Both the position numbers and the translations under genes were made by a program. Source: Quadrisphaera setariae (GTDB lineage: Bacteria; Actinomycetota; Actinomycetes; Actinomycetales; Quadrisphaeraceae). Taken from it: 64,000 nucleotides of DNA. The stretch covers positions 62,001 through 126,000 of the forward strand of contig NZ_VKAC01000013.1 in the NCBI RefSeq assembly GCF_008041935.1, read 5' to 3'. Positions 45,683 through 52,083 of this stretch are shown piece by piece; the first letter of the stretch is position 1, and each line of letters begins with the position of its first letter. The notes beneath the pieces were generated by a model, which worked only from the letters and a program-made list of their open reading frames with translations, was not told the origin of the DNA and made no database searches.

Positions 45683-48358
45683 GTGATGCTGCCGCCCGCG
45701 GGACGGCCCGGCTCGGGCGCCGACCTCCCGGTCCGGGAGGTGCTCGACGACCTCGCCGGAGCCCTCGCCGACCGCGGCACCGCGCTGCTCGTCGCTCCTC
45801 CCGGGACCGGCAAGACCACGCTGGTGCCGCTCGCGCTCGCCGACGCCCTCCCGGCGTCAGCGGGCCGCGTGGTGGTCGCCGAGCCCCGCCGCGTGGCCGT
45901 CCGCGCGGCTGCCCGCCGCATGGCCTCCCTGGTCGGCGAGCCCGTCGGGCAGCGCGTCGGGTGGAGCGTCCGCGGTGAGCGCCGCACCAGCGCCGCCACC
46001 CGGGTGGAGGTGGTGACCACCGGTCTGCTGCTGCGGCGCCTGCAGCGCGACCCGGAGCTGCCGGGCGTGGACGTCGTCGTCCTCGACGAGGTCCACGAGC
46101 GCCACCTCGACGCCGACCTCGCCCTCGCGCTCCTCCTGGACGCCCGCGCCGCGCTGCGCCCCGACCTGCGGGTCCTGGCCGCCTCCGCCACCCCTGACAC
46201 CGCCCGCCTCGCCGCCGTGCTCGGCGCCGCCGACGGACAGGAGGACGGCGACGGCGGTGGCGCGCGGCCGGCGCCGGTCGTCGTCGCCACCGCGCCCGTC
46301 CACCCCCTGGAGGTGGTGTGGGCGCCTCCGACGCGGCCCGTGCGCCCGCCCGAGGGGACGCGCACCGACCCCGCGCTGCTCGACCACGTCGCCGCGACGA
46401 CCCGCCGCGCCCTGGCCGAGCGGGCCGGGGACGTGCTGGTGTTCGTCCCCGGAGCGGCCGAGGTCGGCGGCGTGCGGTCCCGGCTGGAGCGCTCCCTCGG
46501 CAGTGACGGCGGCAGCGGCGTCGACGTCCTCGCCCTGTCCGGCCGGCAGTCGACCGACCAGCAGGACGCCGCGCTGCGCCCCTCCGAGCCCGGGCGGCGG
46601 CGCGTGGTGGTCTCCACCGCCGTCGCGGAGTCGAGCCTGACCGTGCCCGGCGTGCGGACCGTGGTGGACGCCGGCCTGTCGCGCGTGCCCCGGACCGACC
46701 ACGCCCGCGGCCTGGGCGGGCTGGCCACCACCCGGGTCAGCCGCGCCGCCGCCGAGCAGCGCGCCGGCCGCGCCGCCCGCGAGGCCCCCGGCACCGTCTA
46801 CCGGTGCTGGAGCGCGCTGGAGCACGAGCGCCTCGCGCCCCAGCCGCTGCCCGAGGTGGCCACCGCTGACCTCACCGGCGCGGTGCTGGCGCTGGCCGCG
46901 TGGTCGCGCGCCGACGGCGCCGGCCTGCCCCTGCTCGACCCCCTGCCCGCCGGCGCCACCGCCGCCGCGGTCGGCGTGCTGCACGACCTCGCCCTCCTCG
47001 ACGGCGACGACCCGTCCACCGCCCGCCCCACCCCCCGCGGCCGCGCGGTCGCGTCGCTGGGGCTGGAGCCGCGCTGGGGCCGTGCGCTGCTCGACGGCGC
47101 GGCGCTGGTGGGGGAGCGGACCGCTGCCGAGGTGGTCGCCCTGCTCAGCGAGGACGGCCTCGTCGGCGGCGGTGGCCCCGGCGGCGGGGGTGACGACATC
47201 GCGGCGAGCTGGCGCGCCCTCCGCCGCGACGACGACCCCGGCCGCTCGGCCCGGTGGCGCGCGGAGGTGCGCCGTCTGTCCGGCGCCCTCGGCGACCTGC
47301 CCGCCGGCCAGCGGCCCGCCGCCGCCACGAGGGCTGCCCGCCTCACCGACGACGCCGCGGCCGGGCTCGTCGTCGGGCTGGCGCACCCCGAGCGGCTCGC
47401 CCGCGCCCGCTCGGCGGGGTCGTCGGGGGAGTCCTACCTCACGGCGGGCGGTACTGCGGTCAGGCTGGCCCCCGGGTCGGGCCTGCGCGGCGCGCCCTGG
47501 CTGGCCGTCGCCGTGGCCGACAGGTCCGGCAGCGACCCGGAGGCCCGTGTCCGCGCCGCCGCCGCCCTCGACGAGGACGGCGCCCGCGCGGCGGCGCCGC
47601 AGCTGCTCGTCGACGTCGAGGAGGTGGCCTGGCAGGGCGGCGCGACCGGTGACGTGGTCGCCCGGCGCGTGGAGCGCCTCGGCGCCGTCGAGCTGAGCAG
47701 CCGACCGCTCACCGGAGCCCTCGACGACCGCGAGCGCGCCCTCGTGGCCGACGCCCTCGCCGACGGCCTCGGGCAGGCGGGCCTGGCGCTGCTGCCGTGG
47801 CCGGAGGGGGCGGTGCGGCTGCGGCGGCGCCTCGCGGCGTGCCGCGAGGCGCTCGGCGACCCGTGGCCCGCCGTCGACGACGACGCCCTGCTCGCCCGTT
47901 CCGCCGAGTGGCTCGGCCCGGAGCTGGCCGGCGCGCGCCGACGGGCCGACCTCGCCCGGGTGGACACGACCTCCGCGCTGAGGCGGCTGCTGCCGTGGCC
48001 GGACGCGACCAGGCTCGACCAGCTGGCGCCTGAGCGCCTGCGCCTGCCCGACGGAGGGGCCCGGGTGCTCGGCCAGCGCGGACCGGACCAGTCGAGCGCA
48101 CCGCTGGACTGGTCCGACCCGGCCGCGCCCGTGCTCGCGGTCCGGCTGCAGAGGGTGCTGGGCTGGACCGGGGCGCCGCGCGTGCTGGACGGGCGCGTCG
48201 CCGTCGTCATCCACCTGCTCTCACCGGCCGGGCGACCGCTCGCGGTCACCGCCGACCTGGCGGGCTTCTGGCGAGGCGCCTACCGGGAGGTGCGGGCGCA
48301 GATGCGGGGTCGTTACCCCAAGCACGCCTGGCCCGAGGACCCCCTCAGCACCCGCTGA
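45683..48358 (+). CDS. hrpB: ATP-dependent helicase, HrpB-type (DEAH/RHA)
   Basis: 891 aa. Superfamily 2 motifs: I VAPPGTGKTTLVPLALAD, II VVVLDEVHERHLDADLAL (DEVH), III AASATPD, then VLVFVPGAAEVGGVRSRLE, VVVSTAVAESSLTVPGVRTVVDAGLSR and the motif VI region AAEQRAGRAAREAPGTVYR. The C-terminal HrpB domain includes PRVLDGRVAVVIHLLSPAGRPLAVTADLAGFWRGAYREVR. GTG at 45683 is chosen, with a GAGGAT box 7 nt before it; ATG at 45674 is an alternative. The cellular role of HrpB is unclear. Confidence 0.88.
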   Translation: MMLPPAGRPGSGADLPVREVLDDLAGALADRGTALLVAPPGTGKTTLVPLALADALPASAGRVVVAEPRRVAVRAAARRMASLVGEPVGQRVGWSVRGERRTSAATRVEVVTTGLLLRRLQRDPELPGVDVVVLDEVHERHLDADLALALLLDARAALRPDLRVLAASATPDTARLAAVLGAADGQEDGDGGGARPAPVVVATAPVHPLEVVWAPPTRPVRPPEGTRTDPALLDHVAATTRRALAERAGDVLVFVPGAAEVGGVRSRLERSLGSDGGSGVDVLALSGRQSTDQQDAALRPSEPGRRRVVVSTAVAESSLTVPGVRTVVDAGLSRVPRTDHARGLGGLATTRVSRAAAEQRAGRAAREAPGTVYRCWSALEHERLAPQPLPEVATADLTGAVLALAAWSRADGAGLPLLDPLPAGATAAAVGVLHDLALLDGDDPSTARPTPRGRAVASLGLEPRWGRALLDGAALVGERTAAEVVALLSEDGLVGGGGPGGGGDDIAASWRALRRDDDPGRSARWRAEVRRLSGALGDLPAGQRPAAATRAARLTDDAAAGLVVGLAHPERLARARSAGSSGESYLTAGGTAVRLAPGSGLRGAPWLAVAVADRSGSDPEARVRAAAALDEDGARAAAPQLLVDVEEVAWQGGATGDVVARRVERLGAVELSSRPLTGALDDRERALVADALADGLGQAGLALLPWPEGAVRLRRRLAACREALGDPWPAVDDDALLARSAEWLGPELAGARRRADLARVDTTSALRRLLPWPDATRLDQLAPERLRLPDGGARVLGQRGPDQSSAPLDWSDPAAPVLAVRLQRVLGWTGAPRVLDGRVAVVIHLLSPAGRPLAVTADLAGFWRGAYREVRAQMRGRYPKHAWPEDPLSTR

Positions 48359-48379
48359 CCACGGGGCGGACGGGCGTGG

Positions 48380-48736
48380 TCAGCGGACCGGGCCGGTGTA
48401 CTTCTCGCCCGGGCCAGCGCCGTGCGCGTCGGGGAAGGGGGACGCCTCGCGGAAGGCCAGCTGCAGCGACCGGAGGCCGTCGCGCAGCGGCCGGGCGTGG
48501 TGGTCGCCGATCTCGGGGGAGGCAGCGGTGACCAGGCCGGCCAGCGCGGTGATGAGCACACGGGCCTCGCCGAGGTCGAGGTGGCCGCCCGCCTCGGCGT
48601 CCTCCGCGAGCCCGCACTTCACGGCCGCGGCGCTCATGAGGTGGACGGCGGCGGCCGTCACCACCTCGACCGCGGGGACCTCCGCGAGGTCCCGGACGGC
48701 GGTGGCGGACTCGGTGCTGGTCTCTGGCTGGCTCAC
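48380..48736 (-). CDS. DUF1844 family protein
   Basis: 118 aa: LAEVPAVEVVTAAAVHLMSAAAVKCGLAED, then DLGEARVLITALAGLVTAASPEIGDHHARPLRDGLRSLQLAFREA. These are the DUF1844 markers. In many actinobacteria DUF1844 genes sit beside infC, as here, but this copy is divergent. It has a leaderless promoter (TAATGT). Function unknown; the helical sequence suggests a small soluble protein. Convergent with hrpB 21 bp away. Confidence 0.82.
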   Translation of the reverse strand: MSQPETSTESATAVRDLAEVPAVEVVTAAAVHLMSAAAVKCGLAEDAEAGGHLDLGEARVLITALAGLVTAASPEIGDHHARPLRDGLRSLQLAFREASPFPDAHGAGPGEKYTGPVR

Positions 48737-48742
48737 GCTGGT

Positions 48743-48748
48743 ACATTA
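48743..48748 (-). promoter_or_regulatory. -10 box of the DUF1844 gene (leaderless)
   Basis: TAATGT on the minus strand ends 6 nt before the GTG at 48736. Confidence 0.55.
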
Positions 48749-49046
48749 GGCGACTGACCGACCGCGGCTCCGTGACCGCGCACGCTCCCGCCCGGCTCGT
48801 CCGGGCACCCGGGAGCACCGCAGAACGGGGCCCGGTGCGCCAAGTGGAGGCCTCCTCCCACCCGCGTCGGCCCTCACCGGCCGCCGGGTCCCCGGTCCAC
48901 CGCACCACCCCGCGAGCACCGGGGGTGGGTGCGGTTCTCCGGCGTCGCCTGCGACGCCCGAGCCGGGTCAGGCCCTCGCGACGCGTCCGTCGGGGGAGAC
49001 CCTCCCGCGACGGTGGTTCCGAGCACGTCGCAGAGGAGCAAGGCAC
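48749..49046 (+). promoter_or_regulatory. Long GC-rich infC leader region
   Basis: A stretch of about 300 bp without a gene separates the DUF1844 promoter from infC. It contains several potential stems, for example GGCGTCG/CGACGCC around 48941-48958 and GCACC-type pairs near 48915-48935. It ends in GAGGAG (49033-49038). infC leaders carry autoregulatory structures in other bacteria; whether this one does is inferred only. I see no convincing -10 box for infC. Confidence 0.4.
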
Positions 49047-50258
49047 ATCAGCGAACCGCGCATCAACGACCGCATCCGCGTCCCCGAGGTGCGGCTGGTC
49101 GGGCCGAACGGTGAGCAGGTCGGGATCGTGCGCGTCGAGGACGCGCTCCGCCTGGCCCAGGAGGCCGACCTCGACCTGGTCGAGGTCGCCCCGCAGGCGA
49201 AGCCCCCGGTCTGCAAGCTCATGGACTTCGGGAAGTTCAAGTACGAGTCCGCGATGAAGGACCGTGAGGCTCGGAAGAACCAGACGAACACCGTGCTGAA
49301 GACCGTCCGGCTGCGCCTGAAGATCGACCCGCACGACTACGAGACCAAGAAGGGCTTCGCCGAGAAGTTCCTCGAGGGCGGCGACAAGGTCAAGGTCATG
49401 ATCATGTTCCGTGGTCGCGAGCAGTCGCGCCCGGAGATGGGCCTCCGCCTCCTCCAGCGCTTCGCCGGCGACGTCGCCGAGCTCGGTGCGATCGAGTCCA
49501 GCCCCCAGCAGGACGGCCGGAACATGGTCATGGTCATCGGCCCGACGCGCCGCAAGGCCGACGTCAAGGCCGAGCAGAAGGCCGAGCAGCGCGACCGCCG
49601 CGACGCCGACCGCGCTGCTCGCGCCGAGCGCACCCAGCGCGAGCGCGAGGAGCAGGCCGAGCGCCAGTCGTCCGCTCCCGAAGAGCCCGAGGCTCCGCAG
49701 GTCTCCCCGCTCATCGCCGAGGGCGACGAGCCGCTGTTCGTCCGCCGCGCCCCGCAGCCGGCCGCTCCGGCGGCCCGCGAGGGCGGCTACCGCAGCGAGC
49801 GTCCCGACCGCGAGGGCGGCTACCGCGGTGGAGACCGTGACGGTGGCGGCTACCGCGGCGACCGTGGCGGTGACCGTCCCGACCGCGAGGGCGGCGGCTA
49901 CCGCGGCGGTGACCGTCCCGACCGCGAGGGCGGCGGCTACCGCGGTGGAGACCGTGACGGCGGGTCCCGCCCGCCGCGCACGTCCACCGGCCCGTCGCGC
50001 CCGTCCGGCCCCCCGCCGGCCTCGCGCCCGGTCCGTCCGGCGATGCCGCGTCCGGCCGTCCAGCCGGGAGCCGCTCCCGGCCCCCGGCCCACGCCGGCGG
50101 CCCCCGCCCGCGAGGGCGCTGCACCGACGCCGGGCCCCGGCCCGTCGCCGGCGCCCCGCCCGGGCTCGGCCACCCCTGGGCCTCGGCCCACCCCGGCCGC
50201 CCCGCGGCCGACCCCCCGTCCGGCTCGACCGACGCCTCCGCCGCCCTCGGGCGACTGA
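49047..50258 (+). CDS. infC: Translation initiation factor IF-3 with AUC start and long RGG-rich tail
   Basis: 403 aa if initiated at the AUC codon at 49047 ([19 protein letters not shown]), which is 8 nt after GAGGAG and restores the family's N-terminus; the first standard start, GTG at 49089, would remove 14 conserved residues. Residues 1 to about 172 are a normal IF-3 ([49 protein letters not shown]). Beyond it lie a charged helical segment (about 173-208), a YRGGDR/DREGG repeat region (about 243-308) and a Pro/Ala/Arg tail. IF-3 is normally about 180-220 aa. It probably uses the rare start codon for autocontrol, as E. coli infC does with AUU. Confidence 0.93.
49800..49952 (+). repeat. Tandem repeat inside infC
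   Basis: Two 39-bp units (49875-49913 and 49914-49952) differ at only a few bases, and a 36-bp relative occupies 49800-49835. Each encodes RPDREGG(G)YRGGD. The repeat falls in the tail, not in the IF-3 core. Confidence 0.85.
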
Positions 50259-50293
50259 GCCGCCGCAGGACCGGACAGACCCAGCACCCGTGA

Positions 50294-50353
50294 CGCCCGG
50301 AGGGACCCCTCCGGGCGCTGACCAGAGCGCGGGCGGGCCATCGTGCCCGCCCG
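50294..50353 (+). promoter_or_regulatory. Two hairpins in the infC-rpmI spacer
   Basis: CGCCCGGAGG (50294-50303) pairs with CCTCCGGGCG (50308-50317). CGGGCGGGC (50330-50338) pairs with GCCCGCCCG (50345-50353), which ends 5 nt before the rpmI ribosome-binding site. This is where L20 binds to autoregulate rpmI-rplT in other bacteria; a role here is inferred. Confidence 0.45.
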
Positions 50354-50373
50354 GAACGAGGAGGACGGCAGCC

Positions 50374-50568
50374 GTGCCGAAGATGAAGACCCACAGCGGG
50401 GCCAAGAAGCGTTTCAAGGTCACCGGGAGCGGCAAGCTCATGCGCGAGCGCACCAACCTGCGCCACCTGCTGGAGGGCAAGTCCACCCGCCGCACGCGCC
50501 GCCTGTCCGTCGACGCGCAGCTCTCCCCGGCCGACGCCAAGCGCGCCGAGCGCCTGCTCGGCCGCTGA
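50374..50568 (+). CDS. rpmI: 50S ribosomal protein L35
   Basis: 64 aa. Full L35: [42 protein letters not shown], then [13 protein letters not shown] start behind GAGGAGGAC. Between infC and rplT as in most bacteria. Confidence 0.97.
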
Positions 50569-50616
50569 GCGGCTGAGCCACTCCCCACCGACCTCTAGAA
50601 GACCCAGGAGCACCCC

Positions 50617-51006
50617 GTGGCACGCGTCAAGCGGGCAGTCAACGCCCAGAAGAAGCGCCGCACCGTCCTCGAGCGCGCCAGCGGCTACCGCGGCCAGCGC
50701 TCGCGGCTCTACCGCAAGGCGAAGGAGCAGGTCACCCACTCCCTCGTCTACGCCTACCGCGACCGCCGCGCCCGCAAGGGCGACTTCCGCCGCCTGTGGA
50801 TCCAGCGCATCAACGCTGCGGTCCGCGACAACGGCATGACCTACAACCGCTTCATCCAGGGCCTCAAGGCCGCGGGTGTCGAGGTCGACCGCCGCATGCT
50901 GGCCGAGCTCGCCGTGAGCGACCCGGCCGCCTTCACCGCGCTGGTGGGCACGGCTCGCGCCGCCCTCCCCGCGGACACCTCGGCCCCCGCCGCCTCGGCG
51001 GCCTGA
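50617..51006 (+). CDS. rplT: 50S ribosomal protein L20
   Basis: 129 aa. L20 nucleates 50S assembly and often represses its own operon. [58 protein letters not shown] and [24 protein letters not shown] are all standard. An Ala-rich C-terminal tail of a few residues is extra. GTG start with AGGAG upstream. Confidence 0.97.
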
Positions 51007-51039
51007 GACCGGTCCGGCAGCGGGGGCGTGGGCAGCAGC

Positions 51040-52083
51040 ATGAGCACCGGGTCGGTCGACCACCGGCCCGGTGCCCGCACCTCCGCGGCTCCGGCTGCGG
51101 CGGCGGGGCTGCTGGCCAACCCCCGCGCTGACCGCGTCAGGGCGCTGGCGCGCCTCGCGACCCCCGCGGGTCGCTCGCGCGCCGGCTCCTTCCTGGCGGA
51201 GGGCCCCCAGGCCGTCCGCGAGGCCCTCAGCGCCCCGGCACCCCACCGGGTGCGCACGGTCGTGGCCACGGCCGCGGCGCTGCAGCGCCACCCCGAGCTC
51301 GGCCCCGGCGCCCACCGCGCCGGGGCCGAGCTGCTGGAGTGCACCGACGAGGTCCTCGCCGTCCTGTCCGGCACCCGCACGCCCCAGGGCGTCGTGGCCG
51401 TCTGCGACGCCGTGCGACCGGCTCTGGAGGACGTGCTGGACGGCGGCCCCCCGGCGCTCGTGGCGCTGATGGCGCGCGTGCAGGACCCGGGCAACGCGGG
51501 CACGGTGGTGCGCGTGGCGGACGCAGCGGGCGCCTCGGCGGTCCTCCTCACGAGCGGGAGCGTCGACGTCCACAACCCCAAGGTGGTGCGCTCCACCGCG
51601 GGCAGCCTGTTCCACCTCGACGTCGTCCAGGGCGTCGACCTGGCAGGCGCCGTCGAGCGCCTCCGCGGCGCCGGCGTGGCGGTCCTCGCCACCGACGGCG
51701 TGCCCGGCCGCGGCAGCGCGGACCTGGACGACCTCCTCGACGAGGCCGAGGTCGGCGCGGGCCCCCTGGCGGGCCCGACGGCCTGGCTGTTCGGCAACGA
51801 GGCGAGCGGGCTCGACCCGGCCGAGCGCGAGCTGGCCGACCTCGCCGTCCGCGTGCCGCTGCACGGCCGCGCTGAGAGCCTGAACCTCGCCACCGCAGCC
51901 GCGGTGTGCCTGTACGCCAGCGCCCGCGCCCACCGCCGCCGGCGCTCCGAGGACGCCGCACCGCGGGCCCTCGTCGCTCCCGCAGACACCGTCAGCCACA
52001 CTGGCGCTGTGGAGCACCGCACGTCCCCGCAGCGGGCGAGCGCCGGCGGAGCCTCGGGCACCGGTCCGGTGGCCCATGACTGA
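51040..52083 (+). CDS. SpoU/TrmH-family RNA 2'-O-methyltransferase
   Basis: 347 aa. N-terminal substrate-binding domain from LLANPRADRVRALARLATPAGRSRAGSFLAEG; the SPOUT domain has motifs [30 protein letters not shown] and ESLNLATAAAVCLY with the Asn/Glu residues of TrmH enzymes. It probably methylates a 23S rRNA ribose. About 45 residues after the SPOUT domain are unconserved. ATG at 51040 is chosen (GTG 51028 is also in frame). It overlaps the next gene by 8 nt. The same gene follows rplT in many actinobacteria. Confidence 0.9.
   Translation: MSTGSVDHRPGARTSAAPAAAAGLLANPRADRVRALARLATPAGRSRAGSFLAEGPQAVREALSAPAPHRVRTVVATAAALQRHPELGPGAHRAGAELLECTDEVLAVLSGTRTPQGVVAVCDAVRPALEDVLDGGPPALVALMARVQDPGNAGTVVRVADAAGASAVLLTSGSVDVHNPKVVRSTAGSLFHLDVVQGVDLAGAVERLRGAGVAVLATDGVPGRGSADLDDLLDEAEVGAGPLAGPTAWLFGNEASGLDPAERELADLAVRVPLHGRAESLNLATAAAVCLYASARAHRRRRSEDAAPRALVAPADTVSHTGAVEHRTSPQRASAGGASGTGPVAHD

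Follow-up and report, generated by a model that had tools for sequence, protein, structure and literature searches.

The usual view of IF3 is that of an invariable factor made of two domains. The infC gene described here encodes an IF3 whose core is followed by a tail longer than the core itself, and the question is whether this tail is translated and kept, and what it may be for. The gene is located at 49047-50258, on the forward strand, of the window, the whole 64,000-nt stretch of DNA analysed (G000:C13:62001-126000, in a genome of 4.9 Mb), and is an open frame of 403 residues running from an ATC start to a stop codon at 50256-50258. Residues 1-166 (49047-49544) are an ordinary IF3. The Pfam domains IF3_N (residues 6-75, E 2.3e-32) and IF3_C (residues 83-166, E 9.2e-30) both exceed the Pfam cut-offs and identify the product as a bacterial IF3. 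A second IF3 was searched for in the genome, and none was found. Beyond residue 166 there are 237 residues, in agreement with the about 230 given in the original prediction.

The gene is followed on the same strand by rpmI (L35, 50374-50568), which is matched in relatives and lies outside the tail, and by rplT (L20, 50617-51006). The order infC-rpmI-rplT is typical of bacterial infC, and the window features both this order and a non-canonical start codon. A Shine-Dalgarno-like GAGGAGC, also supported by relatives, is found at 49033-49039, upstream from the ATC at 49047-49049; the mechanical ORF list begins infC at GTG 49089 instead. Non-canonical infC starts are known in connection with IF3 autoregulation, and are ATT in E. 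coli and ATC in Streptomyces (PMC5472188). ATC or ATT occupies the start position in 106 of the 135 IF3 rows whose start region could be aligned. Of the remaining 29 rows, five were inspected; ATC is found one codon upstream in all five, and the start alignment there is therefore off by one.

Four parts follow each other in the tail, all on the forward strand. A charged segment (residues 167-218, 49545-49700), predicted to be helical at residues 170-208 (49554-49670), precedes a conserved island (residues 219-236, 49701-49754) featuring the octapeptide DEPLFVRR at 49725-49748. Next to the island are a repeat part based on a 13-residue unit (residues 237-303, 49755-49955), which hosts a tandem array with a 39-bp period at 49782-49955, and a Pro/Arg/Ala C-terminal part (residues 304-403, 49956-50255). 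Charged helix, repeats and Pro/Ala/Arg end had all been noticed in the original prediction, where the island was missed; the span drawn there, 49776-50258, takes in the repeat and the Pro part, and leaves out the helix and the island. In an AlphaFold2 run with 47 sequences, a single helix is predicted at residues 170-208 (block pLDDT 87-96 over residues 171-210). No secondary structure is predicted past residue 208, where block pLDDT is 43-64, with one block at 71, and the island is not predicted ordered (48-55). Long predicted disorder, read here from low confidence and not from a disorder predictor, is a character that the tail shares with Rho-like phase-separating regions. No solved structures related to the repeat were found up to E 10, and the three longest solved IF3 chains among the matches measure 171-180 residues.

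The tail is very probably translated and constrained. Its frame is open in all five other genomes of the genus (g1) examined; tails are complete in four of them, where they measure 224-249 residues, while that of G087 reaches the end of the contig. No stop or frameshift right after the IF3 core, the case against translation named in the original prediction, was found in any of the five. dN/dS values were obtained by the NG86 method. Among three close species (G000, G007 and G101) they are 0.17-0.44 in the charged helix, 0-0.08 in the island, 0.09-0.18 in the repeat and 0.18-0.28 in the Pro part, compared to 0-0.06 in the IF3 core, and it is on these values, 0-0.44 in every part, that constraint and translation are judged very probable. 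The repeat dN/dS is 0.06 in the pair G065-G107, 0.14 in the pair G129-G143, and 0.03 in the Kineosporia pair G121-G426, in which 31 of 33 differences fall at third positions. Higher values arise in deeper comparisons, with their poor alignments, or where the window compared takes in variable flanks. Such are the values of the pair G000-G129 (0.72 in the repeat, at 50% identity, and 0.74 in the helix), of the pair G000-G135 (1.06 in the helix, 2.47 in the island window) and of the G121-G426 island window (1.17 over 18 residues, variable flank included). The helix of G129-G143 (0.48) and the Pro part of G065-G107 (0.36) are also among the high values. A frameshift makes the core values of G129 (0.37 and 0.32) unreliable, and they were set aside. 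The frame change in this infC gene (L142, at about 735-775) is in the core, between LDLVEVAP and VCKLMD, and not in the tail; it is probably an assembly error in an essential gene.

The DNA pattern of the island was detected in 19 of 396 genomes of the order, 12 times within IF3 and 7 times in loci without IF3; the reversed pattern, used as control, was detected in 10 of 396, by manual count. Island-positive IF3s, with one match per genome, are those of all six genomes of the window's genus and all six genomes of g41. The latter genus is Kineosporia, as the tail of G426 is identical to that of the K. rhizophila locus L061. The octapeptide pattern is kept in all 12 species. In a class sample of 296 genomes the pattern matched, besides the IF3 of the window, two loci that have no IF3. 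When linkers around the island were shuffled, the observed score was reached by 0, 0, 1 and 0 of 2000 shuffles, a test biased by windows centred on the motif. A possible likeness between the island and SSB tips was judged too weak to retain. Kineosporia IF3 tails (L061, G065, G107, G121, G135, G425, G426) are built of these four parts too, in identical order, with the island reading [DE]EPIFIKR. They differ in having a RPSYGDRPSGPRGD-like or related repeat with 0-1 RGG, and an end stretch with Lys, Glu and Ala, rich in GPRPTPGP. The sequences thus support a four-part arm in fixed order, with an open frame and constrained at the codon level, in two genera.

In the family of the window (13 genomes) the island is found in 6/6 g1 genomes and in 0/7 genomes of the genera g2, g3 and g166, in which tails are 35-60 residues long, or 170 Pro/Ala/Gln-rich residues in G073. 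Similarly, in family f15 (13 genomes) the island is found in 6/6 Kineosporia genomes and in 0/7 genomes of five other genera, with tails of 39-52 residues. Tails of 35-60 residues are thus found in 13 of the 14 island-less genomes of the two families, G073 being the remaining one, and the arm is thus dispensable in close kin. Long Pro/Ala-rich tails without the island are carried by many other actinobacterial IF3s. The interval separating infC from rpmI measures 53-143 nt in rows lacking the island and 111-132 nt in rows hosting it (27 rows in all). In g2 and g166, whose frames stop 35-60 residues past the core, it is only 53-111 nt, which indicates that tail DNA is absent in these genera and not carried untranslated. 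On account of this and of the open frames in the genus, a frameshifted or untranslated tail was rejected as an explanation. The repeat-bearing IF3 tail originally predicted is real and very probably translated. Two further short motifs recur in IF3 tails. One, TQSLADLLPEG / TNSLADAMPAELK-like, is found outside these families, in L017, L025, L084, L087, L151-L153, L185, L186 and L191; the other, SENLDPEID-like, ends the tails of L033, L105, L108 and L117. L059, named Streptomyces sp. NP160, has the same tail as G087 of the window's genus, and its name looks wrong.

In a tree of IF3 core, L35 and L20 (36 rows), g1 groups with its family members g3 and g166, and a clade joining g1 and g41 is rejected (p-AU 0.002). 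In the same tree f15 is supported as a group only at 74/73, and the family of the window (f1) is not one clade. Transfer of a whole infC gene between the two genera is ruled out by this result. The shared tail accordingly reflects one of three histories, i.e. an old presence followed by several losses, a transfer confined to the 3' part, or convergence.

Tandem Repeats Finder reports the array at 49782-49955 as 4.6 copies of a 39-bp period with 75% matches. Its score of 180 tops the 18 rows reported for the window, the runner-up scoring 77, and is well above the best scores obtained in 300 codon shuffles of either 49746-50258 (120) or the repeat part alone (92). The description of the units as near-identical holds for the last ones, which are nearly alike, and not for the array as a whole. 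The YRGGDR pattern has three matches in the genome, all within infC. The repeat carries four RGGs, each 13 residues from the next. In canonical RGG boxes, which are basic, RGGs are 0-4 residues apart; the repeat is different also in charge, its net charge being +0.015 per residue with a charged fraction of 0.43, and RNA binding by net-neutral repeats is expected to be weaker than by basic RGG boxes. Of the IF3 rows that are distinct and complete, 166 in number, 3 have at least two RGGs, as does the contig-cut G087, which has three. G129 and G143, of the same genus, feature DRPERFERP-type repeats with one RGG each. RGG is frequent in only four species. Among the open-licence papers listed, none was found to describe an IF3 tail with RGG or other repeats. 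The repeat may resemble the DRYG region of human eIF4B.

Judging from composition, the character maintained in the repeat is to be Arg-rich, Lys-free and nearly charge-neutral, with spaced Tyr/Phe, while RGG is not conserved. In the six species of the window's genus the repeat part has Arg 0.22-0.25, Lys 0 and Tyr/Phe 0.06-0.08, and its net charge stays at +0.014 to +0.038 despite the changed repeat sequence. In Kineosporia Lys is likewise 0, Arg is 0.16-0.18 and the net charge is between +0.067 and +0.075. In 37 rows with other long IF3 tails (120 residues or more), the tail without its first 50 residues is rich in Ala and Pro; Lys is 0.066, and Tyr and Phe are 0.001 each. Repeat period and copy number vary among the six species of the genus, with the exception of G129 and G143, which agree, and repeat turnover is clear from the sequences compared. 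The recent expansion or contraction originally proposed fared less well. At third positions, five-codon units taken from one genome (22 pairs, 0.82) are no more alike than units taken from different genomes (83 pairs, 0.84), and recent homogenisation is thus not supported.

The same genome encodes a Rho protein (L228) with a long Arg/acid region made of tandem DRPERVERSAGADR-like repeats, and an RNase E (L229) with Arg/acid-rich flanks. All but one of 15 additional genomes yielded a Rho, and each of these 14 proteins has a long low-complexity region, the stretch extracted including upstream sequence in several rows. Arg/acid regions on RNA factors are thus common in these bacteria, and composition alone proves little. 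The g1 Rho regions are near charge-neutral and have at most one Tyr and one Phe; the region of G079 is poorer in Arg. Rho repeats differ from one g1 species to another. By sequence comparison, IF3 is an unusual bearer of such a region, and its repeat is distinguished from Rho by the spacing of Tyr/Phe.

We tentatively propose that the tail is a translated, selectively kept and mostly disordered C-terminal arm, in which a docking motif is combined with weak multivalent contacts, comparable to that of Rho. The charged helix would hold the arm away from the C-domain of IF3. The island, with a DNA pattern that occurs a single time per genome, is a putative short docking motif for a partner, and the Lys-free, nearly charge-balanced repeat with its spaced Tyr/Phe may engage in weak, multivalent interactions with RNA, with the 30S subunit or with the disordered Arg/acid regions of further RNA factors, Rho among them. 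The effect could be a higher local concentration of IF3, or a tuned residence of IF3 on 30S or mRNA under some condition. The arm would be an added layer, which initiation itself does not need. Codon-level constraint, the island in 12 genomes, the near-zero repeat charge and the lack of tail DNA in short-tailed kin argue for such an arm, as do the predicted helix with nothing structured after it, the Rho and RNase E regions and the precedents of Rho and eIF4B. The reading is weakened by the close kin lacking the island, by an island not predicted ordered, by the poor conservation of repeat and helix between subclades, by the commonness of Arg/acid regions on RNA factors, and by the weaker RNA binding expected of net-neutral repeats. 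In an improbable extension of it, the arm would be an eIF4B-like repeat arm with a docking motif of its own, recruiting IF3 to Arg/acid-rich assemblies that also contain Rho and RNase E. If true, initiation, termination and decay factors would be brought together via matching low-complexity regions.

Much of the same evidence can be read otherwise. The island alone may be functional, as a docking or autoinhibitory motif on the helix, with the repeat and the Pro part as loosely constrained spacers. Its octapeptide pattern is kept in 12 species among which the repeat varies in sequence, period and copy number, and Pro/Ala-rich tails may be long without it; yet loose spacers hardly fit repeat dN/dS values that stay at 0.03-0.18 when close species are compared and a repeat charge remaining near zero, and this account looks rather unlikely. 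Equally doubtful is the view of the tail as low-complexity sequence, neutral for the most part, which slippage in a GC-rich gene has lengthened and which is tolerated as disordered. Codon-level constraint, a frame surviving length changes and an island common to Kineosporia are all hard to reconcile with neutrality, which would readily accommodate the patchy occurrence, the rapid repeat turnover and the long Pro/Ala-rich tails found elsewhere in the class. A repeat working primarily as DNA or mRNA, for instance as a structure or in translational coupling to rpmI-rplT, with coding secondary, is extremely unlikely. Two strong hairpins are found in the infC-rpmI gap (50295-50316 and 50330-50353), where a 118-nt stretch folds at -60.5 kcal/mol (z -2.36, 3 of 200 shuffles being as stable). 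Both hairpins, however, lie outside the tail, repeat differences between close species are concentrated at third codon positions, and no Rfam family matches 48300-51300 up to E 1. Under the preferred reading, a constrained arm with a once-per-genome motif offers a handle on whether bacteria regulate initiation via disordered regions, as has been reported of Rho-mediated termination, and two arm-bearing genera with armless close kin provide a natural comparison.

IF3 extensions with a role are already described, whereas the original prediction knew of no role for such a tail on IF3. The 66-residue C-terminal extension of the M. xanthus InfC protein (Dsg) is reported to be essential for development and not for translation (PMC2129111). 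Dsg and the IF3 described here both have lineage-specific C-terminal extensions on an essential IF3; the latter is 237 residues long, and the two are likened by description only, no homology being claimed. Mitochondrial IF3 terminal extensions adapt the factor to a given ribosome, and at least one is needed for the function of yeast Aim23p (PMC6321546). They are about 30-60 residues long and found at both ends, with no repeat mentioned in the passages describing them, in contrast to the single C-terminal arm found here. Rho, of Bacteroides and other taxa, is similarly a conserved RNA factor with a taxon-specific low-complexity region. Its disordered regions include YQSRGD repeats, i.e. of Y/R/D type, in some taxa and a small conserved element in B. 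thetaiotaomicron, for whose Rho phase separation is reported (PMC10284900). The Rho region is inserted internally, whereas the IF3 arm is C-terminal and known from sequence alone. Yeast eIF4B is likewise an initiation factor with imperfect repeats in a region predicted to be disordered, and its 7-repeats domain binds single-stranded RNA and 40S (PMC8762332). These repeats are about 26 residues long and belong to an unrelated eukaryotic protein, and RNA and 40S binding pertains to eIF4B only. Among these systems, the IF3 analysed here is a variant, in which a constrained repeat arm exceeds the core in length.
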